A stretch of DNA of 64,000 nucleotides, from NCBI GenBank assembly GCA_006384855.1, contig VCJN01000188.1, positions 186,001 to 250,000 on the forward strand, read 5' to 3'. This DNA comes from Tetraselmis striata (lineage: Eukaryota > Chlorophyta > Chlorodendrophyceae > Chlorodendrales > Chlorodendraceae). This document shows, one piece after another, positions 17,521 to 63,944 of the stretch. How positions within the stretch are numbered: position 1 is the first letter of the stretch; every line of letters starts with the position of its first letter. Below the pieces are notes generated by a model that saw nothing but the letters and a program-made list of their open reading frames with translations, did not search any database and had not been told where the DNA came from. The translations under genes were made by a program, and so were the position numbers.

Positions 17521-17534
17521 TCGATCCGGTTGGG

Positions 17535-23334: not shown

Positions 23335-23339
23335 ATCAT

Positions 23340-24460: not shown

Positions 24461-24469
24461 ACCTCGACG

Positions 24470-27887: not shown

Positions 27888-28538
27888 CACGAGAGAGAAA
27901 AAAACGGCCAGTGATTAGCCACGCTGGTCTACTGGCTACCCGTACTAATCGTCCTAACTGCTGGCCTTAATTTTACTGCTGGCCTGCGTGGGGCTATATT
28001 CACCCGCGTTTTTCTATCCTGAAACAACCTGTAGTTTCTCGTATTGGTACACTCGTCGTCTATGCTCGAGCACCCGTAGCTCGCGAACGACTCGCAGAAT
28101 ATATACGACGCAGCGTACAGGTACTGGCACTCCGAGTATGGGTAGCCCGCGCATTGATATTAATAGCGCGCGCATGATGCCTGACGATGATGATGACGAG
28201 CGCAGCAGCAGAGTATGGGGATACTGTACTACCTGGTAAGGATCGCCTTCTGCTGCTAGCTCATGTAAGTAATGTACCTGGTGAGAATTACCTGGTACAG
28301 GTACTGATATTATGTAGTAGCGACGAGGTATCACTATATCAGTATCATCAAAGCACGGTACTAGCATACACTACTCGTACTCGCTCGAATACTGCTGGTA
28401 CATGCAGCAGAGCGCGTTATTCGACACAGCAGAGCGCGCGGATTGCGGGATTGGTATTTTGCTGCGCTCATTAACCCCTCCCAGCTCGCCCGTCGGCTTC
28501 ACAACACCTGAAGATTCCAAAAGCAAAGCTCGACAGAG
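27888..28538. other. upstream region of the F-box gene
   Basis: No gene is recognised. The DNA is rich in GTAC/CTGGTA motifs and has a short ATGATGATGACG run. It presumably includes the F-box promoter and 5' leader; no core element can be assigned. Confidence 0.4.
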
Positions 28539-36196: not shown

Positions 36197-37385
36197 TGGC
36201 AGCAACCTGAGCCTCATGCACACAAAGCTACATGGCATGTAGTCAATGGACAGAATCCAAGGCTGCCGACCACATGCAGTCTTAACTTGCGTAACTCAAA
36301 GAAAGGTCATTCAAAAAAATGCTTTGAAAATGAGATGCTGACGGGGCCGTGAGTCATCCAGTTCAGGCAGGCTTCCACAAGTCTCAAGCAATGGCACTGT
36401 GATAAATATTGAAATAGAGCTGCCCCTAGCTCCCCAAATTTGAAAATTATGAATTGAATGTGTGTAGTGCTGCCTCGGTTTCTGCTTGTACTTTTGGCGC
36501 ATCTCGCGGTGGAACTCTCCGATGACTTTGTGCCTTTACTGTGTGGGAAAAGGGCCCAACGCATCTGCCATCTCGCTTGCTGACTTCTGTCTTTAGCGCC
36601 GAAAGCATACATGCAAAGAGACATATGTAACACGCAACACAGCCGCGCGCCGCTCGGAGTGAATAAAATGATTAAAAAGACACATTCGCGAGCGCACCAG
36701 CCTGCGCATATCTTCTCGAGAAGAGGCCGCGTCGGCATACCTATGCAGAGTGATCAAGTGGACGTGTGTGCTAGTGCCGCCGGTCTATCGAGGAGTCAGT
36801 GACGGGTGCTGACGGGAGTCGGTAGAGGGATGTACCGTACCAGTAGTGCAATATCGCGACAGCACGGCCACATGCTAGGAAGTTTCGTCGCCACTAGCTA
36901 GTAGGCAGTACCCATGAGAGGACTAAGCTGACACTAATAGCCGCAAACAGCGGCGCAGCTCGACTTCCGTTCGCGTCGCGGACTTGCGACTTCTGTTCGT
37001 GTCGCGGAATCCTCATCGTCTCGTGCCGCGTGTTCTCGCTTGCAGCGCTAGGGTCGCTGTACTACTGGTGTGGAGGAATCATCCCCATATACGGGTGCTC
37101 GTAACAGGGTACAAAGACAGAGGGACTACTGATACCGGAACGAGTCGAGGTTGTGCATATCCGAAAATGTGGCGAATACACGAATCGCACTATCCTCGGG
37201 TAGTTTGACCGACTCGTGTGGCACAGGTCGCAATACTCGTACAAAAACTTGCATTATATTTGACTTCTTCCCGGTATTATCCCGTACATATGTGCTGTAT
37301 TTGCAATTGACGAGGACCAGCGACGTCGTAGCGATCGTGAGCTAGTAGTTAGATCGATAATATATCAATGTCGTCCGCATCACCA
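36197..37385. other. no gene recognised
   Basis: 3' flank of the short MYB gene. The 143-residue minus-strand frame at 36307-36738 shows no domain and lacks splice support. Confidence 0.4.
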
Positions 37386-37530
37386 CCACAGTATATAAAT
37401 ACAGTATAAAGTAAGCGGCGCGTCTCAACGGCCCCGCACTGGCGCCGCGCAACCCGACCACAGTATATAAACACAGTATTTAATAAGCGGCGATTCTTAA
37501 CGGCCCCGCACTGGCGCCGCGCAGCCCGAC
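37386..37530. repeat. two tandem copies of a 72-bp unit
   Basis: Copies start at 37386 and 37458, each beginning CCACAGTATATAAA and ending ACTGGCGCCGCGCAACCCGA (second copy CAGCCCGA). They contain TATATAA boxes followed by a GC-rich block and could be duplicated promoter elements. Confidence 0.85.
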
Positions 37531-42971: not shown

Positions 42972-45900
42972 TCAGTCGAACATGCTGTGGGCGAGATTGG
43001 CGGCCCGCGCCGACTGCTTCTGCCGGGTCTCGTCGCTCGACTCCTTGTAGTTCTGGTTGTGGAAGCGCGCAACCGCAACGTTCTTCTTGGCACGCATGCG
43101 GCGCTTGAGCATGGCGAGGTCGTTGCCCGGGCCCGCGGGGCCGCCGGGGCCGTGTCGGCCCGGCACCCGCAGGTCAGGCATCTGCTCCCACAGGTCGCGC
43201 AGCTCGCCGGCGGTCTCCTCGTCGCTGCTGCTGGCCGAGCGCCGTGACACGTGCGTCACCGTCTCCTCGCGCGTGATATTGATGCCCTTTCGGAGCGCCG
43301 AACTGCTGCTGGCCGACTGCTTCTCGGACGCGACTCGCGAGTAGGTGCTGTCGTCTTCGCTGGAGGAGGCCTCCTCCACGGTGTACGACTTCTGTGGAGC
43401 GGACTCCCTGTGCAGCGGCGGGACATTCCAGGCCACAAGCAACGTCAGAAGGGTATAGTAATTGAGGTGTTGAATCAGCATGATATGACACAAATAAGAG
43501 TCTATATTATAATAAGATATATATACTTACCAAAAATGGTATCATAGATAAACTCTTGTATTGTACTGTATTATATATTAAAACATTAAAAAGCAAATAC
43601 CAGTGAATAAATCAGATGTGCACGGTGCTTGAATGTTACTCTTACTCGTGCAGTCCAGTACACAGAATTGAAACGCGGGTCAGTGGACTCAAACACCGAT
43701 TTGGTGTTTTAAAAACGCGGCCAGTGAGATGGGGCCAGTGCGCGGGGGCACTCACTTGGAGCTGCGCATGGCGGCCGAGGCGCGCGCGCGGATCTCCGCC
43801 TCCTGGCTGGCCAGCGACGCGCGGCGCGCCTCCGCGGCGCGGCTGGCGCTCGACTCGGCACTGCGCGCCGATGCGACGCGCTCCCCCTGCAGCGCCGCCA
43901 CCGACGCCTGCGCGGCGGCAAGCTCCTCCATCGCCGTTGCCAGCTCGCCTTCCAGCTCGTCGATGCGCGCGTCGCGCTTGGCCAGCCGCTCGTTGGCCTG
44001 GCGCACCATCGTGTTGTACGCGCCGTTGGCCTCGCTCGCGCTGTGAAAGCTCGAGTTCTGCGCCTCGGCCAGCTCCGCCTGCGCGGCCTGCAGCCGCTGG
44101 CGCGCCGCCGCGAGCTCGCTGATGGCGGCGCCCTCCGCGGCCTTCAGCCGCTTGTTTGCCTCCGCGGCGTCGCTGAGCGCGCGGTCGCGCTGCTCCAGCT
44201 CCGACACGCAGTGCTCCACCTGCCACAGCACAAAATACATGCACGCTCGGTCGGGAGCCAGCCTCGACACCCTGGCGAGATTCGCAATAAGAATAGAATT
44301 ATCATACCATCAACAATCCGAGCAGCATAAATATTCTTGTTACACCATTGTATGCCATTTGTAGTCATATTGTCCTGGTTGTCCAGGTCATCATTAAAAT
44401 TGCATTCATCATATAATGTATGTCCTTCATTCTAATCCATCAGTCATAATTCCATCCATAATCATACATCTTTAAGGGGTTATCATAGAAAGGCAGCACT
44501 ACGGGTGCCGACGCACTTATAACAACCATTTTTCATCAGCTCGAACTGGGCTTGCATGCAACTTTAATAAGACAATTCACCGGCTATAGTTTTGTCTACA
44601 TGTGACCTCTAACAGGCAGGGTGGGTCCGTATTTACAGTGCTGCTATAACCGCGCCGGCAGCCGTGAGATTATGCGACATATGCCACATCATATGGTTTG
44701 GCATATGATGTGGCCATATCATATGGCCACATCACTCGGTTTAATGTAGTCACACAATTCTGCCCAATAAGCCTGTCCTGGAAACGCCCGAGTCGTGGGT
44801 CGAAACGCGCGACACACCTGCGCCTGCAGCCGCGACTCGGCCGACTCCTTCTCGGCCAGCCTCGCCTCTAGCGCGTCGATGTTCTCCTCCAGCGCCGCCA
44901 TCTGCTTCTCCAGCTCCCCGCTGGCCGCGTTCATCGCCTCAATCTCCGCCTGCAGCGACGCGGCGCGCGCGCTCGCCTCGGCCGCCTCCTCCCCGCGGCT
45001 CGCCAGCGCCTCGCTCTTGGCCTTCACAGCGGCACTGAGCTCCGCCAAGCGCGCCCCCGCCTCGTCCTGTGGCGACACCACAGGCGGCAGATCCCCCCAA
45101 AATGTCAGCCTCGGATGCGGCAAAAGCTTTCGGCGCGTATACTGCCGTCAATCAAGCAAATGACAGATCAAATCAATGAGCGGATCCGTTTATTATCTAT
45201 TTCCGACAGTACTCGGTACCGACATATTACTCGTACGGAGTGTACTCTTGCCGACATGCATCTCGACAGGTACCGGGCGGGAGAGTAGTATTGTACCGCC
45301 GCAACGTTAAAGCACGAGACGCCAGGGTTTGGGTGCCGACACTCACCTCCGCTGCCTCGAGCGCCGCCTCGGCCGCCTCGGCGCGCTTGTTGGCGGCAGC
45401 CGCCTCGGCCTCCGCCGCCTCGCGCTCTGTGGTCGCCCGCTTGCGCACCTCCTCCAGCGCGGCGCGCGCGCGGGCCGCCTCCTTGTTGGCCGCCTCGGCC
45501 GCCAGGGCGCCTTCGTGGCCTCCCAGCTGCAGGTCGTGCAGCTGCGCCTCGAGGGTGCGCACGCGGGACGACGCGGCGCCCGCCTCGCGCTCCAGGTCCT
45601 CGCACTCCGCCTCCTTGCGGTGCGCGTCGGCCATTGAGTCCTCCAGCTGCGCCGTCAGCCGCGCCACCTGGGCGCGCATGGCGGCGAGGTCGTCCTCGCC
45701 CGCCTCCAGCCGGCTCTCGAGGCGGCTCTCGTTACGTTCCGTCGCCGTCAGCCGCTGCTGCAGCTGCTCGGAGCTCCGCTTCATGCTGGCGAGCTCCGAC
45801 TGCAGCCGCGCCGCCTCCGCCTTCGCGGCCTCCAGCCGGTCGGCGCTCTCGCGTGCGGCGCGGCGCGCCTCCGTCGCCGCCTCCGCCAGCCGCGCCTCCA

Positions 45901-48900
45901 GGGACTCCACCGCGGCCGACGCCTTCTCGCCGGCGGCGCGCTCCGCCGCCAGCTCGCGCTGCGAGGCGGCCAGGGCGGCGTCGGCGGTGGACCGCGCGGC
46001 TTGGAGGCTGCTCGCCTCGCGCCTCAGCGCGGCGCGCTCGCCCTCCAGCTCCGCCACCATCGCCTGCATCTCCCGCGCGCGGCTCTCGGCGCGCGCGGTG
46101 GCCGCGTTGGCGCCCTCCAGCCGGCTCTCTGCGCGGCCGCTAGCCAGCTCCGCCTCCGCCAGGCGATCCTTCTCGCCCGCGCGCTCCGCCTTGAGGCGCG
46201 CCACCTCATCGCGCAGCCACGAGCGGTCGCTGTCGGCCGCCTCGAGGCTCGCCTGCGCGTGCGCCAGCTCCGCCTCCATCGCCGCCTTTCCGCTCATCGC
46301 GCTCGTGTGGTCGCGGGTGGCGCGCGCCGCAGCGGACGCCGCCTCCTCGCGAGCGGCGGCGTCGCGGGCCAGCTGCGCCTCCAACTCCGCCACCTAGCGC
46401 ATACCCACCAACGTCAGATCGACCACATTGCGACGGAAGACGGCAGCAACAAGCGACCGACTATCGTCTTCGGTCGTCGGACGGAGCCCGAACACAAGCG
46501 TGGCGGCCGTGCAGAGCAGAGGACAAAAAAGTTGCGCCGACCGGGCTACTTCGCCTACTAATTCACTATCGGGAGGCGAGGAGGTACCTTGTCGCGCGCT
46601 GCGCGAAGCTCCTTCTTGAGGGTATCCTTCTTGAGGCAAAGCTCCTCGATGGTCGACTTGGCCAGTTCGCTCTCCTCGTCCAGCGTCTCGAGGTCCAGGC
46701 GCAGCGCCGCGTTGGCGCTCTCCAGCTCGCCGCGCTGCTTGAGCAGCGACATGAGCTCCGCGTTGATGCCGTCCAGCTCGCCGCGCCCGGCGCCGGTCTC
46801 CTCGCGCAGCGCGTCGACCTGACCCTGCAGGTCCGCCACCTACACGACAAGCGGCGCCGCCATCGAGTCATTCCCGCGTAGAGGCACTTCGACGGCGGAA
46901 CAATCTCCCATTTCCCAGTGTTGGCGCAGCTGACAAAGTGTTTTTCATAAAACACATAGTTGATATCAGATTAATATATAATTCTATGCCTGATGTACAT
47001 GTATGTTAATGTAGTATCCTTCTGCAGACATCAAGATGCGGCGTCCAGCTGGGTTTGACCGCACCTGAGCCTTGAGCCGCTCGCCCTCGAAGCCCTTGTC
47101 GGACAGCTCCGACTCCAGCTCCGCCACGCGACCCTCCAGGCGCGCAGCCATGCTGGACATCTCGCCCTTGGCCCACTTGAGCGTCGCCTCGCTCTCCGCC
47201 AGCTTGGCGCGCGCCTCCTGCAGCTCGCGCCCCAGCTCGCCGCGCGCGGCGGCCGCCTCGGCCTTGGCGGCGCCCGTGGCCTCAGACGCCTCGCGCTTGG
47301 CCGCCAGCAGCTGCTCGCCCTTGGACGCCAGCGACTCCTCCAGCGCGTCGCGCACCTCCACCAGCCGCTGGTAGTCCGCCGCCTGCCGCTCCATCGCCAG
47401 CTTCATCTGGTGCTCGCCGCGCTTCAGGCTGTCCACGTCCTCCGCCAACGCCTCCCGCGCCGCGCGCACCTCCTTTAGCTGCGTCTCCTTCGCCGCCCTG
47501 TCCTGGCTGGCCTGCGCCGCCGTGTCCCGCAGCCGCGTCACCTCCTCCTCCGCCGCCGCCAGCCGGGTCTTGAGCAAGCGCTCCGCGCCGCTGGCCGCGT
47601 CGCTGGCGCCGCGCGCCTCCGCCAGCCGCGCGCGCGCCGCGGCCAGGTCCTCGCGCAGCCCCTCCTCGCGCTTCCCGGCAAACTCCAGCTGCTGAGCAGC
47701 GAGAGCGGCCTCCGACTCGGCGGCCGACCTGTTGCAGGGGGCGCAACACGCATGGGACGCACTCAGTGCCGCGGCATCGCATCGTGGTTTCGGAGCACAC
47801 ATTGTCAGTGCACTCCGCGCTGCCAATGGACCATCAGTGATACGTATTATGATTATGCCCCCAAGCCTGCCACCAGTTCAAGGCGGATAAAGTCCTTTGC
47901 CGCAACTTTGGCGCTGGGGTTAATAATTGCCGTACTCAGGATTGGCACCATAGAAATGAAAACCAACATGTCAGCCATCGGAGCTCCATGCAGGAAGCAT
48001 CGCAGCTTCAGTGTAACAGTCGGCAGCATTTATTGGTGCAGTGCATCGTCGAGCTCGGTGAATGCATTGAGACCTACTAAGACGTGGGGACCGAAGTCAG
48101 TGGGGATGGATAAAGAGGGCGGCAAAGGCGGAGGGAAGAAAATGCTGTGAAGCTGCTGTGAAGGGAACAGTGAAAGGAGTCGGCTGTCCCCGGCTGCCGG
48201 TCGCCCGCGCGCACCTGGCGGACTTGGCCTGCCGCGCCTCCTCACTCGCCGCGTCCCGGTCCGCCTGCACGCGCGCCAGCTCCACCTGCAGGGCGTCACA
48301 GCGCGCCGTGGCGGCGCTCAGGCCACGCGTCGCGACCTTGAGCTCCGCGTCCCCCTCGCCCACCGCCTGCCGCGCGTCCGACAGCTGGCTGCCCAGCCGG
48401 TCAATCTCCATGTCGGCCGCCTCCAGCGCCGAGTGCAGCCGGTCGACCTCAGCGCTCAGCCCCTCGTTGGCCGACGCCAGCTCGCGCTGCGCGGCACTCG
48501 CGGCACGCGCGCCGTCCTCTGCAGCGGCCTTGCCCTGCCGCAGCTCGCCCTCCAGGCGCGTCACCTCCGCCTGCGCCTCTGTGATCAGCTTGCGGATGTC
48601 CGACTCGCGGTCCGCCGCCGCAGCCGCGTTGCTGTTCAGCTCAACCTCCAGGCGCGCGATGGTCGCGTTGGCGGCGTCCACCGTGGTGTTGGCCTTGCCC
48701 ACCGCCGAGCGCGCCTCCTCCCGCGCCTCCGCGACCTGCTTCTCCAGCCTGGTTATCATGCCCTGCGCCTCGGTGTGCAGCTTGGCCTGCCGGCCTTCTG
48801 CCTCGTCCTCGACCCTGGTGATCATGGCCTGCGCCTCGTCATGCACCTTCTTCGTCTGCGCACGCGACTCCGCCAGCTGCTCCTTCAGCTTGCTAATCGT

Positions 48901-51900
48901 GGCCGACTTGCTGTCCAGCGCCTCCTGCGCCTCCGCGGTCGCCGCCTTGAACTGCCGGCGCAGGTCCTCCAGGTCGTTGCGCAGCTTCTGGATGGACGCC
49001 TCCTTGTCCTTGGCCGCCTGCTGGGAGCTCGACAGCTCACCCTTGAGGTTGCTGATGGTGGAGGTGTGGCTGTCAATGGTGGCCTGCGCCTGGCTGGCAG
49101 TGGACTTGGCCTGCCGGCGCAGGTCCTCCACCTCATCTTGCAGCTTCTGGATGGACGCCTCCTTGTCCTTGGCCGCCTGCTGGGAGCCCGACAGCTCACC
49201 CTTGAGGTTGTTGATTGTGGAGGAGTGGCTGTCGATGGTGGCCTGCGCCTCAGTGCTGGCCGCCGTTGTCCGTCGGCGCAGGTCCTCCACCTCGGCCTGT
49301 AGCTTCCCAATGGCAGCCTGCTTGGTCGCCACCGTCTGCTGGGAGCTCGACAGCTCACCCTTGAGGTTGCTGATGGTGGAGGTGTGGCTGTCGATGGTGG
49401 CCTGCGCCTCAGTGCTGGCCGCCTTGGCCTGCCGGCGCAGGTCCTCCACCTCATCCTGCAGCTTCTGGATGGACGCCTCCTTGTCCTTGGCCGCCTGCTG
49501 GGAGCTCGACAGCTCACCCTTGAGGTTGTTGATTGTGGAGGAGTGGCTGTCGATGGTGGCCTGCGCCTCAGTGCTGGCCGCCGTTGTCCGTCGGCGCAGG
49601 TCCTCCACCTCATCTTGCAGCTTCTGGATGGCTGCGTCCTTGTCCTTGGCCGCCTGCTGGGAGCTCGACAGCTCACCCTTGAGGTTGCTGATGGTGGAGG
49701 TGTGGCTGTCGATGGTGGCCTGCGCCTGGCTGGCAGTGGACTTGGCCTTCCGGCGCAGGTCCTCCACCTCGGCCTGCAGCTTCTGGTTGGACGCCTCCTT
49801 GTCCTTGGCCGCCTGCTGGGAGCTCGACAGCTCACCCTTGAGGTTGTTGATCGTGGAGGAGTGGCTGTCGATGGTGGCCTGCGCCTCGCTGGCAGTGGAC
49901 TTGGCCTGCCGGCGCAGCTCTTCAACCTCGGCCTGCAGCTTCCCGATGGCCGCATCCTTGTCGTTGGCCGCCTGCTGGGAGCTCGACAGCTCACCCTTGA
50001 GGTTGCTGATGGTGGAGGTGTGGCTGTCGATGGTGGCCTGCGCCTCGCTGGCAGTGGACTTGACCTGCCGGCGCAGCTCTTCAACCTTGGTCTGCAGCTT
50101 GCGCAAGGCCGCCTCTCTGTCCTTGACCCTCTGCTGCGACTCGCCAAGCTCGCTCTTCAGCTTGTTGAGGCTCGAGGTGTGGGAGTCCGCAATGGAGCGC
50201 AGCTCGAATTGGGTGCTGCTGGACTTTCTCCGGAGAGCGTCAAGCTCCTCCTGCAGCAGCTCGCGCGCCGCCTCCTTCTCCTGCACCACAGCGTTGGCAC
50301 TGTTAAGGTCGCGCTCCAGCTGCCGGATCGTGCCGAGGTGCGACTCGACGGTGGAGCGGCTCTGCGCCGCGGCTGACTGCGCCTGCCTCTCCGCCTCGGC
50401 TAGCGCCTGCTGCAGCGCCGCCATGGCGTTGTCTCGCAGCACACCAGCCTCTTGCGCCCGGCCCAGCTCCTCCCGCAGTTGGCGGATGGTGTCGTCATGC
50501 CCTGCCGCAATGACCTGCGCCCCGTCAGCCTGCCGACACAGCGCCTCCAACTCCTCGCGGAGCTTGCTGATGGCCGCCTCTTTGCTCTGGGACGCCTGCT
50601 GGGCGCCGGCCAGGTCGCCCTCCAGGCGCCGTATGGTGGAGGTGTGGCTGTCGATGGTGGCCTGCGCCTCGTTACTGGCCACCTTGGCCTGTCGGCGCAG
50701 CTCCTCCAGCTCCTCCTCCAGCTTGGCAATTGCCGCCTGCTTGGCCGCCACCGCCTGCTCAGCGCTGCCGAGATCGTCCTTTAGCTTGCTGATGGACGAG
50801 CTCTGGCTGTCGATGGTGGACTGCAGCTCGGCTTGGGTGCGCCGCGACAGCTGCTCCGCCTCGGCTGCGTCACTCCTGACAGTGGCCAGTGAGGCCTCCC
50901 TCTCGCGCACAGTGTTCTGAGCGTCCGCAAGGTCAGTCCGTAGCTTCTCGATGGTCAAGCCCTGGCTGCCAATGGTGGACTGCGCCTGGCTGGCAGTGGA
51001 CTGGGACTGCCGCTTGAGCTCCTCCAGCTCCTCCTCCATCTTGCCAATGGCAGCCTGCTTTGCCGACAAAGTTCGCTGGGAGTCGCTGAGGTCGGCCTCG
51101 CGCTTGGCGATGGTGGCGGTGTGGGAGTCGATGGTGGTCTGCATCTCCTGCTGGGTCCGCTTGGATTGCCGCTTGAGCTCCTCCAGCTCCTCCTGCAGCT
51201 GCTTGACGGAGGTCCGCTGGGTCTCCACATCCCGCTGAGACTCGCCCAAGTCGGCGCGCAGCCTCTCGATGGTGGAGGCATGACTGTCGATGGTGGACTG
51301 CAGCTCAGCCTGGCCGCGCTTGGCCTGCCGCTTGAGCTCCTCCAGCTCCTCCTCCATCTTGCCAATGGCAGCCTGCTTTGCCAACAAAGTTCGCTGGGAG
51401 TCGCTGAGGTCGGCCTCGCGCTTGGCGATGGTGGCGGTGTGGGAGTCGATGGTGGTCTGCATCTCCTGCTGGGTCCGCTTGGACTGCCGCTTGAGCTCCT
51501 CCAGCTCCTCCCGCAGCTGCTTGACGGAGGTCCGCTGGGCCTCCACCTCTTGCTGAGACTCGCCCACGTCGGTGCGCAGCTTCTTGATGGTGGAGGCATG
51601 ACTGTCGATGGTGGACTGCAGCTCTGCCTGGCCGCGCTTGGCCTGCCGCTTGAGCTCCTCCAGCTCCTCCTCCATCTTGCCAATGGCAGCCTGCTTTGCC
51701 GACAAAGTTCGCTGGGAGTCGCTGAGGTCGGCCTCGCGCTTGGCGATGGTGGCGGTGTGGGAGTCGATGGTGGTCTGCATCTCCTGCTGGGTCCGCTTGG
51801 ATTGCCGCTTGAGCTCCTCCAGCTCCTCCCGCAGCTGGTTGACGGAGGTCCGCTGGGTCTCCACATCCCGCTGAGACTCGCCCAAGTCGGCGCGCAGCTT

Positions 51901-54900
51901 CTCGATGGTGGAGGCATGACTGTCGATGGTGGACTGCAGCTCAGCCTGGCCGCGCTTGGCCTGCCGCTTGACCTCCTCCAGCTCCTCCTCCATATTGCCA
52001 ATGGTGGCTTGTTTCGCTGACACCGTCTGCTGGGAGTCGCTGAGGTCGGCCTTGAGCTTGGCGATGCTGGCAGTCTGGGCATCAATTCTGGACTGCAGCT
52101 CTGTCTGGCTGCGACCGGCTTGCCGCTTGAGCTCTGCCAGCTCCTCCTCACGCTTCGTGACGGAAGCCTGCTTGGCTGCCACCGCCTGCTGGGCCGCGTG
52201 CAGGTCGGCCCTGAGCTGCTCGATGGTGGAGCTGTGCCGGCTTATGGTGGACTGCAGCTCCGTCTGGGCGCTTGCCGCCGAGCGCCGCACCTGGGCCAGC
52301 TCCTCCTCCAGCCGAGCCACCTCCGCCTGCGCATCAGCATTGCGCTCCTTTAGCGCCACTGCCGCCGCTGCCGCCGCGGTGGCCATCTGCCGCTGCAGCT
52401 GGGCCAGGTCGGCCTCCAGCGTGGCAATGGACGCCTGCTTGCTCTCCACGGTGCGCTGCGAGTCGCCAAGATCAGCACGAAGGTTGACAATCGTCGAGGC
52501 ATGGCTGTTGATGGCGGACTGCAGCTCGGCCTGCATGTGATTCGCCTGCCGCCGCAGCTCCTCCAGCTCCTGCTCTAGCTTGGCAATGGTGACCTCGCGA
52601 TCCCTAATCGTGTGTTGTGCGTCGCCAAGTTCCTCCTCCAGCTTGACGATGGCAGCCTGCTTGGCAGCCACCGTCTGCTCAGCGCTGCCCAGGTCGGTCT
52701 TGAGCTTGCTGATGGACGAGCTGTGGCTGTCAATGGTGGACTGCAGCTCGGCCTGGGTGCGTCGCGCCAGCTGCTCCGCCTCGGCTGCCTCGCGCTTCAG
52801 GGTAGACAGCGAGGCCTCCCGCTCAAGCACGGTCTTCTGGGAGTCCCGGAGATCAGCACGCAGCTTCTCGATGGATGAGCTGTGGCTGTCAGTGGTGGAC
52901 TGCAGCTCGGCCTGCATGTCATGCGCCTGCCTCTTGAGCTGCCCCAGCTCCTCCTCCAGTTGGACGATGGAGGACTCGCGCTGCTTCACCGTGTTGTATG
53001 CGTTGCCAAGTTCCTCCTCCAGCTTGCTAATCGCAGCCTGCTTGGACGCCAACGCCTGTCCAGCGCCTCCCAGCTCGATCTCAAGGTTGTTGATGGTGGA
53101 GGCATGGCTGTCGATGGTAGCTTGCAGCTCGGCCTGGGTGCGCCGCGCCAGGTGCTCCGCCTCTGCAGATTCGCGCTTGAGGGTAGACAGCAAGGTGTCC
53201 CGCTCTGCCACAGTGCCCTGTGCGTCGGCGATCTCAGCGCGCAGCATCGCGATTGTGGAAGCACGGCTGTCGATGGTAGCTTGCAGCTCGGCCTGGCTCC
53301 GCTTGGCCTGCCGCTGGTGCTCCTCCAGCTCCTCCTGCAGCTTACCAATGGCGGCCTGCTTTGCCGACACAGTCTGCTGGGAGTCGCTGAGGTCGGCCTT
53401 GAGCTTGGCAATGGTGGCAGTCTGGGCATCAATGCTGGACTGCATCTCCTGCTTGGTGCGCTTTGCCAGCTGCTTGAGCTCCTCTAGCTCCTCACCGAGC
53501 TCAGCCAGTGAGGTGCGCTTGGTCTCCACCTCCAGCTGTGACTCACGCAGGTCAGCGCGCAGATCCTCAATGATGGAGCCCTGGCTGCTGATGGTGGACT
53601 GCAGCTCAGCCTGGCCACGCTGCGCCTGACTCTTGAGCTCCTCCAGCTCCTCCTGCAGCTTACCAATGGCGACCTGCTTTGCCGAAACAGTCTGCTGGGA
53701 GTCGCTGAGGTCGGCCTCGCGCTTCTCGATGGTGGAGGCATGGGCGTCAATGGTAGACTGCAGCTCGGCCTGGGTGCGCTTGGATTGCCGCTTGAGCTCT
53801 TCCAGCTCCTCCTGCAGCTGCTTGACGGAGGTCTGCTTGGTCTCCACATCCCGCTGAGACTCACCCAAGTCGGCGCGCAGCCTCTCGATGGTTGCGGCAT
53901 GGTTGCCAATGGTGGACTGCAGCTCGGCCTGGCCCTGCTGCGCCTGCCGCTTGAGCTCTGCCACCTCATCCTCCAGCTTGCCGATGGCGGCTCGTTTTGC
54001 CAACACAGTCCGCTGTGCATCGGCAAGCTCCGCCTCGCGCTTGGAGATAGTGGAGCTGTGGCTGTCAATGGTGGACTGCAGCTCCGCCTGCGTGCGCCGC
54101 GCCTGCTGCTCCGCCTCGGCCGCCGCCAGGCTGGTGACCGCCAGAGAGGCCTCCGTCCGGCGGCCGGCGTCCTCCGCCTCGGCGAGGTTGCCCCGCAGCT
54201 TGTTAATTGTCAGGCTGTGTGCGTCGATGACTGACTGCAGCTCGGCCTGGCTCCGCTGCGCTTGCCGCTTGAGCTCCCCCAGCTCCTCCTCCAGCTTGGC
54301 AATTGCAGCCTGCTTGGACACAACCGCCTGCTCGGAGCTTCCGAGGTCGGCCTTGAGCTTGCTGATGGTGGAGCTGTGCCTGTCAATGGTGGACTGCAGC
54401 TCGGCCTGCGTGCGCCGCGCCTGCTGCTCCGCCTCTGCGGACTCACGCTTAAGGGAAGACATCGAGGCATCTCTCTCTAGCACAGTCTCCTGAGAGTCCC
54501 GAAGGTCAGCGCGCAGCTTGTCCATGGTGGAAGCATGGCTGTCGATGGAGGACTGCAGCTCGTCCTGAGAGCGCTTTGCCTGCCTCTTGAGCTTCTCCAG
54601 CTCCTCCTCCAGCCTGCCAATGGAGGCCTCGCGCTCCCTAATGCTGCGCTGCGCATCGGTAAGCTCCGCCTCACGCTTGGTGATGGTGGAGGCATGGCTG
54701 TCAATGGTGAACTGCAGCTCGGCCTGAGAGCGCTCCGCCTGCCGCTTGAGCTCCTCCAGCTCCTCCTCCAGCTTGACGATGGTGGCCTGCTTGGACACAA
54801 CCGTCTGATCAGAGCTTCCGAGGTCGGCCTTGAGCTTGCTGATGGTGGAGCTGTGGCTGTCAATGGCGGACTGCAGCTCGGCCTGCGTGCGCCGCGCCTG

Positions 54901-57900
54901 CCGCCGCAGCTCCTCCAGCTCCTCCCGCAGCTGGACGATGGAGGCCTCACGCTCCCTCACTGTGTGTTGCTCATCACTAAGCTCCTCCTTTAGCTTGCCA
55001 ATGTCAGCCTCCTTGGAGGCCACCGTCTGCTCAGCGCTGCCCAGGTCGGCCTTGAGGTTGCTGATTTTGGAGCTGTGGCTGTCAATGGCGGACTGCAGCT
55101 CGGCCTGCGTGCGCTGCGCCTGCCGCCGCAGCTCCTCCAGCTCCTCCCGCAGCTGGACGATGGAGGCCTCACGCTCCCTCACTGTGTGTTGCTCATCACT
55201 AAGCTCCTCCTTTAGCTTGCCAATGTCAGCCTCCTTGGAGGCCACCGTCTGCTCAGCGCTGCCCAGGTCGGCCTTGAGGTTGCTGATTTTGGAGCTGTGG
55301 CTGTCAATGGTGGACTGCAGCTCGGCCTGCGTGCGCCGCGCCTGCTGCTCCGCCTTGGCTGCCTCGCGCTTGAGGGCAGACAATGAGGCCTCCCTCTCGA
55401 GCACGGTCTCCTGGGAGTCACGGAGGTCAGCGCGCAGCTTCTCGATGGTGGAAGCATGGCTGTCGATGGAGGACTGCAGCTCGTCCTGAGAGCGCTTTGC
55501 CTGCCTCTTGAGCTCCTCCAGCTCATTGCGCAGGTCCGTGAGTGAGGTCTGCTTGGCTTCCACCTCTTGCTCAGACGCACTCAAGTCTGCCTGCAGCTTC
55601 TCAATGTTGGAGGCGTGGCTGTCGACCGCCGAGTGTAGCTCCTGCTCAGAGCACCGAGCCTGCCTCCGCGCATCCTCGAGCTCGGCCTCCAACCTGCCAA
55701 CAGCAGCCTTCCTGTCTAGCAAAGACTCATGGGAGTCCCGCAGGTCAGCGCGCAGCTTGTTGATCGTCAGGCTGTGCGAGTCGATTACGGACTGCAGCTC
55801 TGCCTGGCTGCGCTGCGCCTGCCTCTTGAGCTCCTCCAGCTCCTCTTCCAGCCTGTCAATGGCGACCCTGCGGTCCCTCATGCTGCGTTGGGCATCAGCA
55901 AGCTCTGCCTCGCGCTTGAGTATGGTTGAGGCATGGCTGTCGATGGTGGACTGCAGCTCGGTCTGTGTCATCTGCGCCTGCCGCTTGAGCTCCTCCAGCT
56001 CCGCCTCCAGCTTGGCGATGGTGGCGGTGTGGGAGTCGATGGTGGTCTGCATCTCCTGCTGGGTCCGCTTGGACTGCCGCTTGAGCTCCTCCAGCTCCTG
56101 CTGCAGCTGCTTGACGGAGGTCCGCTGGGTCTCCACCTCCCGCTGAGACTCGCCCAAGTCAGCGCGCAGCTTCTCGATGGTTGCGGCATGGTTGCCAATG
56201 GTGGACTGCAGCTCGGCCTGGCCCTGCTGCGCCTGCCGCTTGAGCTCTGCCACCTCATCCTCCAGCTTGCCGATGGCGGCTCGTTTTGCCAACACAGTCC
56301 GCTGTGCATCGGCAAGCTCCGCCTCGCGCTTGGAGATAGTGGAGCTGTGGCTGTCAATGGTGGACTGCAGCTCCGCCTGCGTGCGCCGCGCCTGCTGCTC
56401 CGCCTCGGCCGCGGCCAGCCTGGTGGCCGCCAGAGAGGCCTCCGTCTGCCTGCCGGTGTCCTCTGCCTCGGCGAGGTTGCCCCGCAGCTTGTTGATTGTC
56501 AGGCTGTGTGAGTCGATGACCGACTGCAGCTCGGCCTGGCTCCGCTGCGCCTGCCGCTTGAGCTCCTCCAGCTCCTCCTCCAGCTTGGCGATTGCAGCCA
56601 GCTTGGTCACAACCGCCTGCTTGGAACTTCCGAGGTCGGCCTCGCGCTTGGCAACGGCAGAGGCATGGCTGTCGATGGTGGCCTGCAGCTCGGCCTGGGT
56701 GCGCTTGGACTGCCGCTTGAGCTCCTCCAGCTCCTCGTGCAGCTGCTTAACGGAGGTCCACTTGGCCTCCACCTCTTGCTGAGCCTCGCCCAAGTCGGTG
56801 CGCAGCTTCTCGATGGTCAAGGAGTGACTGTCGATTGTGGACTGCAGCTCCTGCTGGGTGCGCCGCGCCTGCCGCTTCAGCTCCTCCAGCTCCTCCTGCA
56901 GGTCCACAATGGACGCCTGCTTGGTCTCTACCTCACGTTGAGACTCACGGAGGTCAGCGCGCAGCTTCTGGATCGTCAGGCTGTGCGATTCAGTGGCGGA
57001 CTGCAGCTCAGTCTGGGATCGCTGCGCCAGCCGGCGCAGCTCCTCCACCTCCTCCTCCAGCTTCCCAATGGCAGCCTGCTTTGTTGATACCGTCTGCTGG
57101 GCATTGGCGAGCTCAGCCTGGAGCTTGGAGATGGTGGAGGTGTGGGCGTCGATGGTGGACATCAACGCGGTCTGGGTGCGCTTTGACTGCCGCTTGAGCT
57201 CCTCCAGCTCCTCCACCAGCCTGCTGATGGAGGCCTCCCGATCTCTCACTGTGGACTGCGCATCGGCAAGCTCCGCCTCGCGTTTGGCAATGGTGGAGGC
57301 GTGGCCATCGATGCTGGCCTGCAGATCCTGCTGCGCCCGGCGCGCCTGTCGGCGAAGCTCCTCCAGTTCCTCCTGGAGCCGGGACAGCGCGGCTTCACTC
57401 TCGGCGAGCTGGCCGTTGGCGGCCTCAAGATCGGCAGCCGCCCGCCGCAGGCGGGCGTGACGCTCCTCTGCCTCGCCCTCCAGGCGCCGCACCGCAGCTG
57501 CGGTATGGTCCGCGGCCGCCTGCAGCTCCGTCTGCCGCACAGCGACCATCGCGGCGTTGCGCTGCCGGGCGGCGCTCTCGTCGTCCAGAGCGGCCAGGGC
57601 GGCCTGCGAGAAAGTGGCCGTCTGTGCTCAGAGCACAAGTGTGTGGGCGGCCATCCGCGCTCAAAGCACAAGGATGGTGTGGCTTGGACCAGGCGCTGGT
57701 GGCGGTGCGCCCATGCAGGTCTCCCCCAGGAGAAGGACCGAAACCAGAGGAACCAAGAGAACTCGGCTTCGGTGGCTGACGCAGGCTGGCTGGCTGGCTG
57801 GCTGGGTGTGTCACACCAAGCCCACGGCAGCCTCGTGGACAAGGGGCCACCAAGGCGGTGCAGTGCAATGCAGGCAGGGCGGCTGGCAGGGCAGGTAGTG

Positions 57901-60900
57901 AGGGAGGCGGAGGCAGCCATTACCTTCAGCCGGCGGCTCGCCTCCTGCAGGTTCTCCTCCATGTCGACCGCGCAGCGGCGCAGCCGCTCCAGCTCCTCGC
58001 GTGATGTCGCCAGCTCGGCGCGCAGGGCGCGCGTTGCAGCCGACTCCTCCGCCTCACGCTCGCGCGACGCGGCCAGCTGGCGTTGCAGGTCAGCCACGCG
58101 CTGCTCCAGGTCCGCCTTTGCCTGCAGCGATGAGCCAGCAAGATAAAGAGCGCGTCAATGTCGTGGGTGGGCCTCCAACACTCGAGCCGCAATAAAGATC
58201 GATTAGTAAGCACCAATTAAAAATCTTGCACTAACAATGGACAATAAGACAATGGAAGAATAACACTAACTAATAAGGCGATAGAGCAATAGACAACAAG
58301 ACAAGACAATACAGGAAAAATAATGGTCTATGAGACAACGATAGAGGAATCACAGATAGGCGCTTGAAAGTGGCATCGACAATGCAAAAGAGGGTGTGGT
58401 GGGGTTTCCCTACCCGCTGCAGCGCCGCCACCTGCCGGCCAGCCTCGTCAAGCACAGCAGTCTGCGCCTCCAGCTCGCTGCGCAGTATCTGGCCGCGCCC
58501 GAGGGCAGCGTCTAGCGCAGCGCTCGCCTGGGAGACGGTGGACTCGAGGCTGGAAGCCAGCTCCGCGGCGCCGGCCTTCTCGGTTGCCAGCGCGCGCTCC
58601 ACGCCGTCCATCTGATCCACGTAGCGCTGCACCTGCAGCCCCAGCTGGACCGCCTGCGCCTCGGTGTCTGCCAGCCGGCTGGTGGCGTCGCCCAGGCGAC
58701 GATCTGTTTCGCCGTGGGCGCCCTCCTCCGCGGCCAGCGCGGACCGCAGGCGCGCCACCTCGTCCTCCATCGCCGTGACTTGGCTGCGCAGCGCCGCGGT
58801 GCGGCTGCGCGCAATCTCCAGCTCCATGCCGGAGTCCATCCGGAGGTTGCGCAGCTCGCGGCTGAGCAGGTTGCGATCGGCCTGGAAGCCGTCCGTGGCA
58901 CGGCGCGACGCGCGGAGCCCGTCCTCCGCCATGGCAAGCTGGTGGCGCAGCCCGCCAAGTGCGGTCTCCTTCTCGCGAACGCGGCCCTCCAGGTTCATCC
59001 AGTCCGCTGCCGCCTTGCGGTGCAGCGCGTCCATCTTTGCCGATAGCTCGTCGCGCTCCTGCGCCGCGGCGGCTAGCTCGGCGCGCAGCTTGGTGGACGC
59101 CTCGAACTCGGCGGCGACAATGTCGCGAACGGCGGCGCACTCCGCGGTGACGCCCTTGGCGATCAGCTCCGCGGCGGTGCCGTCGGCTGCCAGGCGCAGG
59201 CCGGGGAGGATGACTGGTTCCGGGATCGCAGCCGCCAATACCTCGATGTCACGAGTGAGCGCCTGGAAGTGCCGCAGCTCATCTACCATATGGCCCAGGC
59301 TGGCCTTATCCGCGACAATGGCCTCCACTAGGCCCACGGCCTTTGAGGCACGCGGACTGCCGCTGCTGCCATCCGCCGTGGACACGCGGCCGTCCGGACG
59401 GACATGGCTCTTTCGCACCGGGCTGTCCACCGTGTCCTCGCCAAAGTCGGCAAAGGACTTGGGGCCGCTACCGCCGCGCGGCAGGGCACCCGGCGAGCCA
59501 AAGGCGTCGCGGCCCGGCTCGTGCAGCTCCAGGGCCGGCAGCTCGCCCTGGTTGGAGCCGCGCGGGAAAGCCTTACGGCGCGCCGAGGGCGAGGTGGCGA
59601 GCGCGGTGGTGGGCGACGCGGGCGGCAGCCCGGCATCTTCTGCCGCCAGGTCGTACACCCCGTGCACAGCCTCCTTGTAGGGCTGCAGCTCCGCCACCTG
59701 ATAACAGCGACAAGGGAGAGGCGCTGGGCATCAGATATAGGGAAAGCACCTCAAGGGCAACGCGGAGGGTAATGAGGGCTTGGTCGAAAGCTGTCCTTGC
59801 TGTCAACTTGCATCCAGGCATGGTTGGGTGGGGTACGCGCATAGAGTAATGTCAAAGCGGCAATAACAAGACAACTCACTATACCTCATTCCAAATGACA
59901 AACGTCGTGCTTTATAATTCAACACCTTGCAAAGCTATATATATATATCCGTATATAATATTTGTATGTACATATACACATGTATACAATATATATACAT
60001 TTAAAAAAATGTATATATATATCAGTCAAACAGTGCGATGATATACAACGGCACCAACTGGGCATTATGGATGCAGATGATATGGCTAGCAAGTGATGGG
60101 GTACTAGCCATCACCTGATCAAGCAGCTCCTCGCGGCTGGCCAGCGCGGCGGCGAGCTCCTCGCGCAAGCTGTCCACCTCATCAGCGACCATGTCGCGCA
60201 GCGCGGCACACTCGGCGGCGCTGTCGCCGCCCGAGGCTGCCTGCGCGCTGTCCGAGGCCTCGCCGCCCGCGCCGGGCGGAAACACCACCTCCGGCAGGCT
60301 GCGAACAAAGTCCTTGTACGGCCGCAGCGCCGCCGTCTCCGCCTTGAGCTTGCGCTTGTTCTCCACCTCCTCGCGCACCATCTCCACCGTGCCTGCCTCT
60401 TTGGGGTGTGCGCTCCAGTCGATGGCGCGCCCGCGGCGGTGCAAGGCCGCGCACGGCGCGCGTCTCTTCGGAAGCTGAGCCCGACGTTGGCATCACGCCC
60501 ACGTCGGCCGCCTCGACGTCGTCCTCATCTGCGTCCACTTGCGCATGCACCTGCAGCACAATCTGCCGGAAGGGTGCAAGCGCCGCAGCGGCCGCCAGGG
60601 CGGCGTCCAGCTCTTTCTGCAGGCGCTCCACGTCCTCCTGCGCCGCCGAGAGGTTGTGGCTAAGGCGGGCGCCCTCGTTCTCGGCGGCGGCGCGCGCGGC
60701 AGCCTCTGCCGCGAGGTCGTCCTGCAGGCGCGCTAACAGGCGGCGCAGCTCCGCGCCCGCCGACAGCTCGTCTGCCACCCATGGCGCCGTCATGGCAGAG
60801 CGCGGGGAAAGTGTGTCGATGCTAGCGTTGAGCAGGTCGGATGCCTCGGGGGAGTGGCTACCTCCCGATACACTGTGTTTGGCACACTCATCCGCCACCT

Positions 60901-63900
60901 GATGGCACAGGAGGACAGTGAGCATGCTGAGCCAAACTCGATACAGCATTCATGTCAAAAAAGAAGTTCAGCCAGAGATAATGTTGCGGCAGCCACAAGA
61001 AAGCATCAATTATATTTCCCTATTCGTTTAGTATTTCCATTACAGAGTCACCACTGTAATAAAGACTTAGAGTGATAATTAAATTATAACAAGCATATGT
61101 AGAATCCAATGAGCGGAGTAGCTGTGTGATACGGGTTTGCGACAAGGACAAAAACAAGAAGTGGTTAAATGATAACAAAGGGGGCAAGGAAAGGTGCGGC
61201 CCTCGCCTGGTGCAGCGCGTCGCGGTAGGCCGCCAGCCGCGCGCCCTCGCTCTGCAAGTCGAGGCGCGTCTCCGCAAGCTCGCTCTCCAGCTCCGCCACC
61301 CGGCTGTCAAGCCGGCTGACGGCGCCCTCGCGGTCACCCAGGTCCACGCGCAACGCGCGCAGCTCGTTGAGCAGCTGCTCGATGCGCTCGCGCGCGTCGT
61401 CCAGCTCGCCCTGACGCGCCTTCAGCGCCTTGAGTAGGTCGGCCTTCTCGCCGAGCGCGCCGCCAAGGTCGTCGCGCACCTGAAAAAAGAGGCATGAAAG
61501 TAGGCTGTCAGAACACAGGAACATACCTGAAAATACCGTACCCTGATCCGATGATACCGCCGAAATTAATGCAGTCGATGATTCGGACTCGCGGGTGGAT
61601 ATCATATCGAAGTCAATGATACGGGGTAGTGTGTAGTCCGAGCAGCAGGACTCGTCATCATCGAAGTCGGCAGGCGCTCGAGCGAGGTGGCCAAGAAGAT
61701 ACGGCACGTGGTCGTCGAGGCAGGCTGTCTCACCTTTAGGGCGTACTCCAGCTCCTGGCGCACACTGCCTGCGAGGTCCTGAGGGCCACCCGCGTGGCCG
61801 CCATAGCCGGCCGATGGGAGAGCGCGCGACGAAAGGTCGGAGCCGCTGCGGGGTGCGATGCCCAGGTCGGCCAGCGCGGGGCCGGCGGTGGCGGCGTCGG
61901 TGCGCACGTCGTCGTGGATCTGGCGCACCGCGTCGCGGAAAATGCCGAGCGTGCGCACCTCCGCGGCGCGGTCGTCGGCCTCGCCGCGCGCGCCATCCAG
62001 GTCGCCCAGCAGGCCGGCCAGGCTGGCGCGAACGCTGTCGGCGTACGCCTCGGCCGCCGCGATGTCGCCCGCGGCCTCGGGGTCGTCCGAGGCACGCGAG
62101 ACGCGCCCGGCCAGCGCGTCGTCGAGGAAGTCGCGCAGGGCGAGGCAGCGGTCATCCATGGCTGCCTGCAGCCGCGCGGCGCGCTCGCCCGGCGGGGCGC
62201 CCGCGCCGCCCGTCAGGATGTCGGCGTGGCAGTCCTCCAGGCCGGCACGGAAAGCGGCCAGCACCTCGGTGAGGTGGCGGGTGCCGGCGAGTGCCGCCTC
62301 CGCGCGTGCGGCGCGCTCGGCTAGCACCTCCGCTGCGTCCATCTCGTCGTCGACGTCGCGGAGGACAGCGTCGCCGAGTGCAACGCCCCGGAGGCCGTCT
62401 GCACCCATGGCGGCGCGGCCGAGGCGGTCGGCGGCGCTTCTCAGAGCAAGGCGATACGTCTCGGCGATATCCTCGCTCTCCGCGCGGGCAAACATCTCGG
62501 CGCGGGCGGCCTCGGCGGCGACGCCGCTGCGGTGCAGTAGCGACAGCAGGATGGCCTGCGTTAGCGCCTTCTCCCCTCGTGCCAGCGATAGGCGGCGTGC
62601 GAGGTCGTCCATCTCCGCTTCACGCTCCATCAGATCATCGGCCGCCTGGCGCAGCCCCTCCTTCACGGTCTCCAGGCCGGCGACGGCCGAGTTGCGCTCA
62701 TCGGCGGCCGACCCGAGCGCGGCCAAATCCTCCGTCGCAATGCCGAGCGCCTCCTGCAGCTCCATCGCACGCGCTAGCAGGTCTGCCTGCTCTTCGCGGA
62801 GGTCGTCGTTCTGCGCTTCCAGGGCTCCGGTGTCGTCCGCCAGCCGGTCGAGCTCGCCCGCCAGCGCGTCGATAGCTTCGCCGGCGGCTTGCAGTGTGCC
62901 TGCTACCGCCTCGGGCGCCCACGGGTCGGCGCCCACCTCCACCTTCTCCGCCACGGCGGGCACCGCATTGCGCAGCGTGTCGGCTGCCTCACCCACAAGT
63001 GCACGTCCTGCTGCGGCGTCTGCCAGAGCAGCCTGCGCAGCTGCGAGCGCCGCCGCCGTGTCGCTCAGGCGGCCCTTAAGGGTCAGCAGAATGGCCTGAG
63101 TGATGATCTTCTCGCCAGCAGTGCGCGTCAAGCCGCTGCGCAGATCCTCATTCTCGCCCACTAGGCCCTCCAAGTCACCAAGCATCGACTTTGCCTGCCC
63201 ACGTAGCTCCGCCAGCTCCGCCCGGCGACCCTCCAGCTCCATCATCAGCTTGTTGTTCGCCTGGCATAGCTCCTCACGCTCGCCATCCAGGCCGCCCATT
63301 GCAGCCTCCATCTCCACAAGCTGGCCCTGCAGGGTGTCGCACACCTCGTCCGCCGCACGCAGGCGCGCCATCGCATCCGCCAGGCCCTCTGGCGTGGCAT
63401 TGCCGCCAACACCCCTCTCCATGGCGCCATTGGCCGGGGTGCTGTGCGCCGCCTCCAGCTGCTCCGCCAGTCCGCGCATGCTGGACATGCGGCCCAGCAG
63501 CAGCGCCAGAGCAATCGTCTTCTCTGCCTGCATGCGCTTCATGCGGGCGTCATCGCCCGCCACATTAGCCGCCTCGGCGTTCACAGCGTTCAGGCGTGCC
63601 ACGGTGGCCGTTGCCTCGTCCTGAAGCTTGCCAAACTCGCTGGCCAGACGCTTGGTCGCTTCCAGATCGGCGTCACCACCGTGTGCATTGGCCGGCGCCA
63701 CGGGCTTTGCCCTGGCACGCCCCGCCTTGGTGGGGCTTGACAATAGCGTTTCCACCTCAGGGGAGTGCAGCTCCGGCAGCGGCCCGCTGAAGGTGGCTGC
63801 ATCGTAGCGGTAATCCTCAATCTCGTCCGGCTGCAAGGTGGTGCCGTACGGGATGGGTGCGCCCGCCTTGGTCAGCGCATCCACCAGCTTGCTGTTGCGC

Positions 63901-63944
63901 TGATGCGCATCGGCCTCGCGGCCCAGGATGCCCTTGATCTTCGC
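42972..63944 (-). CDS. giant coiled-coil protein, partial at N terminus (13-14 exons)
   Basis: No family is recognised; the protein is almost wholly predicted alpha-helical coiled coil. Exons on the minus strand: 63944-61734, 61479-61207, 60898-60455, 60396-60115, 59697-58414, 58121-57924, 57603-48215, 47728-47065, 46839-46588, 46393-45347, 45066-44818, 44219-43756, 43407-42972. Phases agree throughout, giving 5,730 residues in the window. The donor after 61207 is GC. The 58-nt gap 60397-60454 is either a very short intron with acceptor AAAGAG or a frameshift. The first exon begins at a phase-0 acceptor, so the N terminus lies beyond the window. Regions: Ala-rich coil with three EKxxxxAxLL motifs, linker with Ser/Pro (LLSSPTKAGRARAKP), a low-complexity Gly/Ser/Pro segment (around 59400-59640), a 51-copy repeat rod, more Ala/Glu-rich coil, and a Ser-rich basic tail ending AHSMFD. 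A cytoskeletal, rootlet or cortical scaffold is an inference from architecture only. Confidence 0.85.
44681..44734. repeat. nested palindromes in an intron of the giant gene
   Basis: A perfect 13-bp stem (44683-44695 against 44702-44714, GCCACATCATATG) with a 6-base loop overlaps a second palindrome centred at 44720 (ATGTGGCCATAT-C-ATATGGCCACAT). Both arms use the same CCACATCATATG word. Possible cruciform or MITE footprint. Confidence 0.9.
48940..57333 (-). repeat. 51-copy, 53-residue (159-bp) coiled-coil repeat array
   Basis: Within the 9,389-bp exon, 51 consecutive units can be aligned by eye. The consensus starts QAELQSTIDSHSSTI, then KLRADLGDSQ, then KQAAIGKLEEELEELKRQ. Forty-four units are exactly 53 residues. 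Unit 9 is 32 (minus 21); units 14, 15, 27 and 29 are 74 (plus 21); unit 30 is 89; unit 42 is 49. The summed lengths predict the array end exactly at 48940. 53 equals six heptads plus one hendecad. Units 33-38 alternate two subtypes, making a 318-bp dimer. Units 14 and 15 are a near-identical 222-bp tandem pair. Units 44-51 form a distinct subfamily (EAQATIDSHTSTISNLKGEL). Confidence 0.88.
57787..57806. repeat. GGCT tetranucleotide microsatellite in an intron
   Basis: About five GGCT repeats in the 57604-57923 intron of the giant gene. Confidence 0.85.
59935..60027. repeat. AT-rich dinucleotide-like tract in an intron
   Basis: TA-rich stretch (TATATATATATATCC, then GTATATAATATTTGTATG and TGTATATATATAT) in the 59698-60114 intron of the giant gene, standing out against GC-rich exons. 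Confidence 0.85.

Follow-up and report, generated by a model that had tools for sequence, protein, structure and literature searches.

A 51-unit array of a 53-residue segmented coiled-coil repeat in a predicted giant rod protein gene of Tetraselmis striata

The 64,000-nucleotide window analysed here (the whole stretch from position 186,001 to 250,000 of contig VCJN01000188.1, Tetraselmis striata assembly GCA_006384855.1) contains a minus-strand open frame at 48097..57627 (3,176 aa) that holds a tandem array of coiled-coil units, and the locus raises two questions: what kind of protein such an array builds, and whether its units change length by a rule. As set out below, the gene may, at roughly even confidence, encode a giant cytoskeletal rod that forms filaments by sideways packing, plausibly a fibre or strut of the flagellar base, and the length changes can mostly be explained by shared descent and ordinary unequal exchange.

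When unit boundaries are set with a cyclic 53-column profile that allows free jumps, 51 units tile positions 48940-57333 of the minus strand without gaps (units are numbered 1-51 from 57333 downward), and their 2,798 residues divide into 44 units of 53 residues, four of 74, and one each of 32, 49 and 89. The profile and the unit tables reproduce exactly the coordinates and the count of 51 given in an earlier sequence-only reading. That reading also had the numbers of 53-, 74-, 32- and 49-residue units right and left out the 89-residue unit, which is needed to reach 51. Residue identity within the array is 0.458 at a lag of 53 and 0.469 at a lag of 106, compared with a maximum of 0.116 in 200 shuffles (lags 20-399). 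The tandem array is real and beyond chance. The higher value at lag 106 arises because two-unit higher-order copies exist, and Tandem Repeats Finder also reports 318-, 381- and 477-bp periods in the array. The array and its units of unusual length, with the evidence for each, are:

48940..57333, minus strand: tandem array of 51 units of the 53-residue segmented coiled coil (cyclic profile, unit tables)
55966..56061, minus strand: 32-residue unit with 21 columns missing (profile, unit tables)
54886..55329, minus strand: 74-residue units 14 and 15 in tandem, 99% identical in DNA (unit tables)
52915..53136, minus strand: 74-residue unit 27 (unit tables)
52534..52755, minus strand: 74-residue unit 29 (unit tables)
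52267..52533, minus strand: 89-residue unit (53+36) with an alanine-rich stretch, the addition not a multiple of 7 (unit tables)
50371..50517, minus strand: 49-residue unit, four stutter residues absent, seven clean heptads (unit tables)

The consensus of the 53-residue unit is QAELQSTIDSHASTIEKLRADLGDSQQTVEAKQASIGKLEEELEELKRQAKRT. Its core columns (3, 7, 10, 14, 17, 21, 24, 28, 31, 35, 38, 42, 45, 49 and 52) alternate in steps of four and three, with consecutive fours solely at 52-3-7, and the unit is accordingly seven heptads plus a four-residue stutter, which is equivalent to the six heptads plus one hendecad proposed earlier. Stutters are treated as a standard discontinuity of coiled coils in PMC4786415. 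The Fourier peak of the Leu, Ile, Val and Met residues lies at grid points 3.53-3.535 and fits 53/15 (3.533). The most conserved columns include core columns 7, 14, 17 and 21, three core positions are polar (His at 10 in 38/44 units, Ser or Ala at 24 in 44/44, and Lys or Arg at 31 in 38/44), and there is no proline among the 2,798 residues. In the 49-residue unit exactly the four residues of the stutter are gone, which leaves a pure heptad core (register assigned by eye), as the sequence-only reading had it. The array thus has the hallmark of a segmented coiled coil, in which a discontinuity that the coil tolerates breaks the heptads at regular intervals: here two four-residue core steps in a row recur once per 53 residues.

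At the composition of the array, 3,129 codons would very rarely stay open by chance (ln P ~ -80). The ratio of the proportions of nonsynonymous and synonymous differences (pN/pS) among unit pairs is 0.52, 0.51, 0.59 and 0.70 for DNA identities of 90-100%, 80-90%, 70-80% and 60-70%, respectively; at 80-90% pS is 0.232 and pN 0.118. For pairs at 80-97% identity, the other frames give 0.99 and 1.67 (shifted sense) and 0.91, 0.49 and 1.63 (antisense), the frame with 0.49 being the one that has third positions in common with the coding frame. The five most similar pairs (95-100%) differ by 7, 5 and 5 changes at the successive codon positions, with no third-position excess. As judged from these comparisons, frame-specific purifying selection on the array is real but moderate.

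The sequence-only reading had been headed by the claim that the units change length by exactly three heptads, as if selection or the recombination mechanism preserved the phase of the coil. Five of the seven odd-length units do differ by exactly 21 residues; the rule fails for the 49-residue (-4) and 89-residue (+36) units. The jumps of the profile (four of +21 and one of -21) all use a single pair of neighbourhoods, columns 19-21 and 41, and the self-identity of the unit under internal shifts is highest at 21 (0.186), followed by 44 (0.162) and 42 (0.151). Given this 21-residue quasi-repeat inside the unit, unequal exchange at the motif IxKLxxxL would yield changes of 21 residues in either direction without any phase-keeping machinery. 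Within the 74-residue units the paired 21-residue stretches are just 51-59% identical in DNA, and the heads and tails best match different 53-residue units; these units therefore look like chimaeras of unequal exchange, not fresh local duplications. Units 27 and 29 are each preceded by a similar 53-residue unit, forming a 53+74 double unit. The tail of unit 27 has its closest relatives in the tails of units 29, 14 and 15. If the copy in unit 15 is set aside, unit 14 has a tail that is equally close to unit 1 (0.76) and to the tail of unit 29 (0.76).

On the simplest account, which is not proven, the four 74-residue units probably stem from a single event and were then copied. It follows that about two of four independent changes fit the 21-residue step: the classes +21 and -21 are divisible by 7, and -4 and +36 are not, a result with a chance of ~0.10 (binomial, by hand). 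The three-heptad pattern would then be mostly shared descent plus ordinary unequal exchange, and phase preservation as a rule finds no support, since the 74-residue units are probably of one birth, the 89-residue unit breaks the rule and the quasi-repeat suffices. A machinery or selection that keeps exactly three heptads was considered and is weakened by the copied 74-residue units together with the quasi-repeat. Selection against broken coils may filter the remaining length changes. Overall, the length of the array would change when units, or the 21-residue quasi-repeats within one unit, exchange unequally. Duplication has continued recently, with units 7 and 21 identical in DNA and units 34 and 36 at 99.4%. 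The analysis of lengths also carries a warning, namely that copied variants should not be counted as independent evidence for a rule.

Exon 8 contains the array and is the largest of 14 exons in a predicted gene of ~6,183 aa, which runs from an ATG at L002:1610, past the window end, to a TGA ending at 42972. Exon joins were placed by eye on GT (once GC) donors and AG acceptors. The predicted exons, which rest on splice-like joins together with the further evidence given in brackets, are:

L002:909-1610 and 110-709, minus strand: exons 1 and 2, past the window end
61734..63944, minus strand: exon 3, 737 aa, in the N-terminal part, Pro- and Gly-containing mixed sequence
61207..61479, minus strand: exon 4, GC donor assumed
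60115..60898, minus strand: exon 5, 784 nt, one internal frame break
58414..59697, minus strand: exon 6, with the start of the proline-free run inside
57924..58121, minus strand: exon 7, rod
48215..57603, minus strand: exon 8, the whole array, 9,389 nt open, after AG and before GT (open frame)
47065..47728, minus strand: exon 9, rod, heptad periodicity (periodicity)
46588..46839, minus strand: exon 10, rod
45347..46393, minus strand: exon 11, rod, strong 3.51 periodicity (periodicity)
44818..45066, minus strand: exon 12, rod
43756..44219, minus strand: exon 13, end of the rod
42972..43407, minus strand: exon 14, tail, no clear heptad periodicity, TGA stop (periodicity)

Eleven of the 13 introns are in phase 0, and blastn between the 13 listed no similar pair at E 0.001. 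The identical eight bases GTGGCGGA directly after the acceptor AG open four exons (at 46393, 46839, 59697 and 60898), and the donors are variable, one being GC. The frame change in exon 5 (60115-60898) could be an assembly error, an unusual splice or a real break. Exon 3 matched only itself in the genome.

In the part of the predicted protein encoded by exon 6 and the later exons, the longest stretch without proline comprises 4,354 residues, of which 419 lie before and 1,137 after the array. Fully helical, it would measure ~647 nm at 0.1485 nm per residue. The best periods in exons 9-13 are 3.49-3.56; exon 14 has a power of 1.9 and no clear period. The run carries a net charge of -164, and the last 75 residues of the protein one of +6. 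A straight rod of ~0.4 micrometre had been proposed for the array. The length holds, the array alone coming to ~0.42 micrometre, and the proline-free rod exceeds the array; the straightness was deduced from sequence, and the structure model described below does not settle it.

Relatives of the array were searched for in the 224-Mb genome (2,903 contigs), match counts being lower bounds with only the best candidates scored. A four-unit query gave at least 32 matches, 24 in the window gene and eight in one other giant coiled-coil gene, which is present as two copies on contigs C1831 and C1756. With a query from the second gene there were at least 24 matches, all within the same two genes. Two stretches of the second gene score 59.8 and 108.1 bits on the 53-column profile, whereas 60 heptad-preserving shuffles of each reach at most 21.8 and 21.9, and in the better-scoring stretch the units are spaced by 39, 46 and 53. 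On these scores the second gene carries degenerate units of the 53-residue family. The profile aligned to it jumps by 7, -4, 4, 14 and 7 columns; the alignment favours core-to-core steps, and these values are no independent proof.

The second gene also holds a 28/35-residue array of pure heptads (Fourier peak 3.500), in which anchor spacings are multiples of seven in 45 of 47 cases in C1831 and 45 of 49 in C1756. On the 53-column profile this array scores 59.1 against a shuffle maximum of 73.7, within the shuffle range, and therefore only other parts of the second gene count as members of the family. Five other exons of the window gene were likewise scored on the profile: four fall within the shuffle range and exon 3 is barely above it (22.7 vs 22.4). 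The two copies of the second gene are 99.2% identical, with 64 mismatches and one 4-nt gap (BLAST), and the C1756 copy is split in frame. A MAFFT codon comparison of the copies (51, 24 and 59 differences by position; 50 synonymous, 57 nonsynonymous) would indicate little constraint, but it contained spurious-looking gaps and was not used. No relatives were found in 593 pattern stretches of prokaryote genomes or in 248 of viral contigs, in a scan that sees only places with short query patterns; this was expected because the gene is eukaryotic.

Comparison with known families returned only generic coiled coils. Pfam was searched with pieces of exons 1-14, covering all but 85 nt around the frame break in exon 5. 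For exon 8 only coil families were listed, nine of the 16 above their cut-offs (TMF_DNA_bd, ATG16, Fez1, Filament, Bacillus_HBL, AAA_13, GAS, Lebercilin and Golgin_A5). They are mutually exclusive and their scores are summed over repeats. The nine cannot all be true, and the TMF_DNA_bd match is itself the sum over seven coil stretches. All families listed for pieces of the other exons were below cut-off. In NCBIfam (five pieces) SMC-like and other coils lay far below cut-off and exon 14 had no match. A 1,534-residue piece of exon 8 matched no PDB sequence at E 0.001, and a profile of three-unit rows gave 23 PDB chains at E 1 or less, the best being Huntingtin-interacting protein 1 (E 0.0081). 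Foldseek with a three-unit model returned 587 matches at E 10 or less and none at 0.001 (best 50 of the 587 inspected). These Pfam, NCBIfam, PDB sequence and fold searches are in line with the earlier statement that no described protein has this period, and in the open-licence PMC literature the wordings tried for a coiled-coil repeat of 53 residues or for a giant coiled coil of green algae returned no paper.

An indication of how such a rod might assemble comes from its charges. On the 53/3 (17.7) harmonic the opposite charges are 179 degrees apart, in antiphase, and this is the strongest of the three harmonics 53, 26.5 and 17.7. When non-core columns are permuted, the 53/3 harmonic has p 0.0017, and the best of seven harmonics p 0.013. 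For two parallel arrays register 0 gives the worst charge score (shifts 0-4 are left out of the parallel-stagger average), the most favourable scores come at 26-27, 7-8 and 45-46 residues modulo 53, and the best parallel score exceeds the best antiparallel one (2.02 vs 1.27). The antiphase charges and the parallel stagger resemble those of myosin tails and therefore favour a sideways-packing rod, with a tether as the main rival. In such a rod two chains would wind in parallel into a left-handed coil, which would relax slightly wherever a stutter occurs, with ~7.9 nm between stutters if each residue rises by 0.1485 nm. Owing to the charge bands on the 53/3 harmonic, adjacent rods could associate laterally with a stagger, in the manner of myosin tails, and the packed rods would form a fibre or bundle, plausibly at the flagellar base or in another cytoskeletal strut.

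Several known systems offer partial parallels. In the myosin II tail, according to PMC7365473, the charge pattern is thought to determine lateral stagger, the rod having negatively charged zones and its tip being positive. The predicted protein shares these features: a charge pattern suited to setting stagger, a negative rod and a positive end. Myosin has a 28-residue repeat with rare skips, whereas here the 53-residue unit bears a stutter in nearly each copy, and no motor family was listed for the exon pieces. McLachlan and Karn reportedly described the myosin repeat with a 28/3 charge harmonic. SF-assemblin, according to PMC8435291, is a green-algal segmented coiled coil of striated fibres, built of 29-residue segments of four heptads plus a skip residue. 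Its fibres are associated with microtubules and consist of 2-nm filaments. It resembles the array in being a green-algal coil whose heptads are interrupted at a fixed period; it differs in that period (29 with a skip vs 53 with a four-residue stutter and a hydrophobic peak at 53/15) and in size (34 kD there, a predicted ~6,183 aa here). Rootletin (CROCC), of which a human fragment is a parallel homodimer according to PMC8435291, is also a long coiled-coil rod and occurs at rootlets. Neither PF06705 (SF-assemblin) nor PF15035 (Rootletin) was listed for the scanned exon pieces, and genome searches for both proteins found none, as did their controls, so that these searches are uninformative. Rootletin is not known to have a tandem 53-residue unit. 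In chicken BG cytoplasmic tails, according to PMC4046983, numerous short exons, each coding for 7 (sometimes 8) residues, let the coil vary in length by heptads. Each step there corresponds to an exon, whereas the present array lies within a single exon and changes by 53, 21 or 4 residues.

The chief competitor, to which we give clearly less weight than to the sideways-packing rod, is a tether or strut of single molecules, in which a long dimer links two cell structures by its ends and the repeat merely sets length. Golgins, CENP-E and cNAP-type linkers act in this way, and golgins of the TMF/GRIP type carry a C-terminal GRIP or similar Golgi-targeting domain. The less coil-like ends around the 4,354-residue proline-free run and the generic golgin-like Pfam matches suit a tether; however, the antiphase charge harmonic and the strong 53-residue regularity exceed what a tether needs, Pfam listed no Golgi-targeting family in exons 9-14, and no GRIP, motor or membrane-anchor family was listed for the scanned pieces.

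It is improbable that the units fold as antiparallel, spectrin-like hairpins into a compact bundle. The AlphaFold2 monomer of three units has helices at residues 2-103 and 109-158 (mean pLDDT of the five models 83, 70, 57, 57 and 55), and the break in the best model, at 104-108, falls on one unit boundary; coiled coils modelled as monomers commonly fold back because the partner chain is missing. Against hairpins stand the absence of proline from 2,798 residues, a single continuous core track through the unit that the changes of 21 and -4 residues preserve, and a list of families for exon 8 at E 0.01 that includes no spectrin family.

A role as an axonemal filament or as an axial ruler of microtubules, each unit matching one tubulin dimer, is very unlikely. 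The tubulin dimer repeat is 8.2 nm, near the 7.7-7.9 nm or so spanned by 53 residues at 0.1456-0.1485 nm; the 28-residue units of the second gene span about 4.1-4.2 nm, and the genome has dynein heavy chains (57 AAA_6 domain matches spread over 21 contigs, the best at E 5.4e-161; three prokaryote controls gave below-cut-off matches). The lower rise, 0.1456 nm, is quoted in PMC7365473. However, the mismatch of ~4-6% would add up to a drift of some 17-25 nm across 51 units, the changes of 21 residues and the 89-residue unit would spoil the register, and the Foldseek matches to axonemal doublet entries fall short of significance (E from 0.26 upward). Equally hard to credit is a neutral expansion of little function, through exchange in a GC-rich exon whose frame stays open by chance: a pN/pS of merely ~0.5, the recent duplications and the even codon positions of the five closest pairs would suit it, but the frame-specific constraint in older pairs, the improbability of the open frame, the high conservation of core columns and a geometry kept in diverged units all speak against it.

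The sideways-packing rod itself must be set against several points. The exon joins of the predicted 14-exon model were placed by eye, and with the frame break in exon 5 the first third of the protein may be damaged or belong to something separate. No known fibre family was matched in the libraries searched. The helix break in the AlphaFold2 monomer leaves a straight rod neither proven nor excluded, and on the 53- and 26.5-residue harmonics the charges are nearer in phase (13 and 50 degrees). Both location and assembly are inferred from sequence.

Segmented coiled coils are already known, and the 53-residue stutter-bearing rod appears to be a new variety among structural proteins that build fibres or act as tethers. 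A bolder and rather doubtful extension is that the two genes form an undescribed family of fibre proteins of one flagellate green-algal lineage, in which the stutter would set both supercoil pitch and a lateral stagger of about half a unit (3.9 nm). It would build a striated fibre unlike those of SF-assemblin, centrin and rootletin, with array length tuned by unequal exchange and survival limited to products that suit the coil, changed in length by multiples of 7 or by one four-residue stutter lost or gained. If the protein does build a fibre at the flagellar base, it would be an additional class next to SF-assemblin and rootletin. The 51-fold repeat, the stutter-less unit and the stutter-free 28/35 sister array also form a natural series for the effects of stutters on pitch, stiffness and lateral packing.

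Elsewhere in the window, open frames at 23214-25446, 9730-10965 and 16226-18257 resemble, by eye, parts of DIRS-like retroelements (recombinase, RNase H and others). Palindromic short tandem repeats lie at 9211-9316, a 72-bp unit occurs in two tandem copies with 89% matches at 37385-37530, and part of the open frame at 28512-29123 looks by eye like an F-box. A short VNYKKGSSPELEN-type reading-frame fragment, a dispersed repeat, is present in three copies upstream of the gene (69935-70366, 84815-85171 and 91053-91415, window numbering continued). In the genome there were three matches to the telomere-type pattern CCCTAAA and five partly overlapping ones to CCCTAAAA. The genome content points to a flagellate with green plastids, most simply a green alga and less simply an alga whose green plastids are secondary: besides the dynein heavy chains there were 63 chlorophyll a/b-binding matches (the control matched in one cyanobacterium), and one open frame gave 91 PDB chains at E 1e-60 or less, the 60 shown being mostly named chlorophyll a-b binding proteins.

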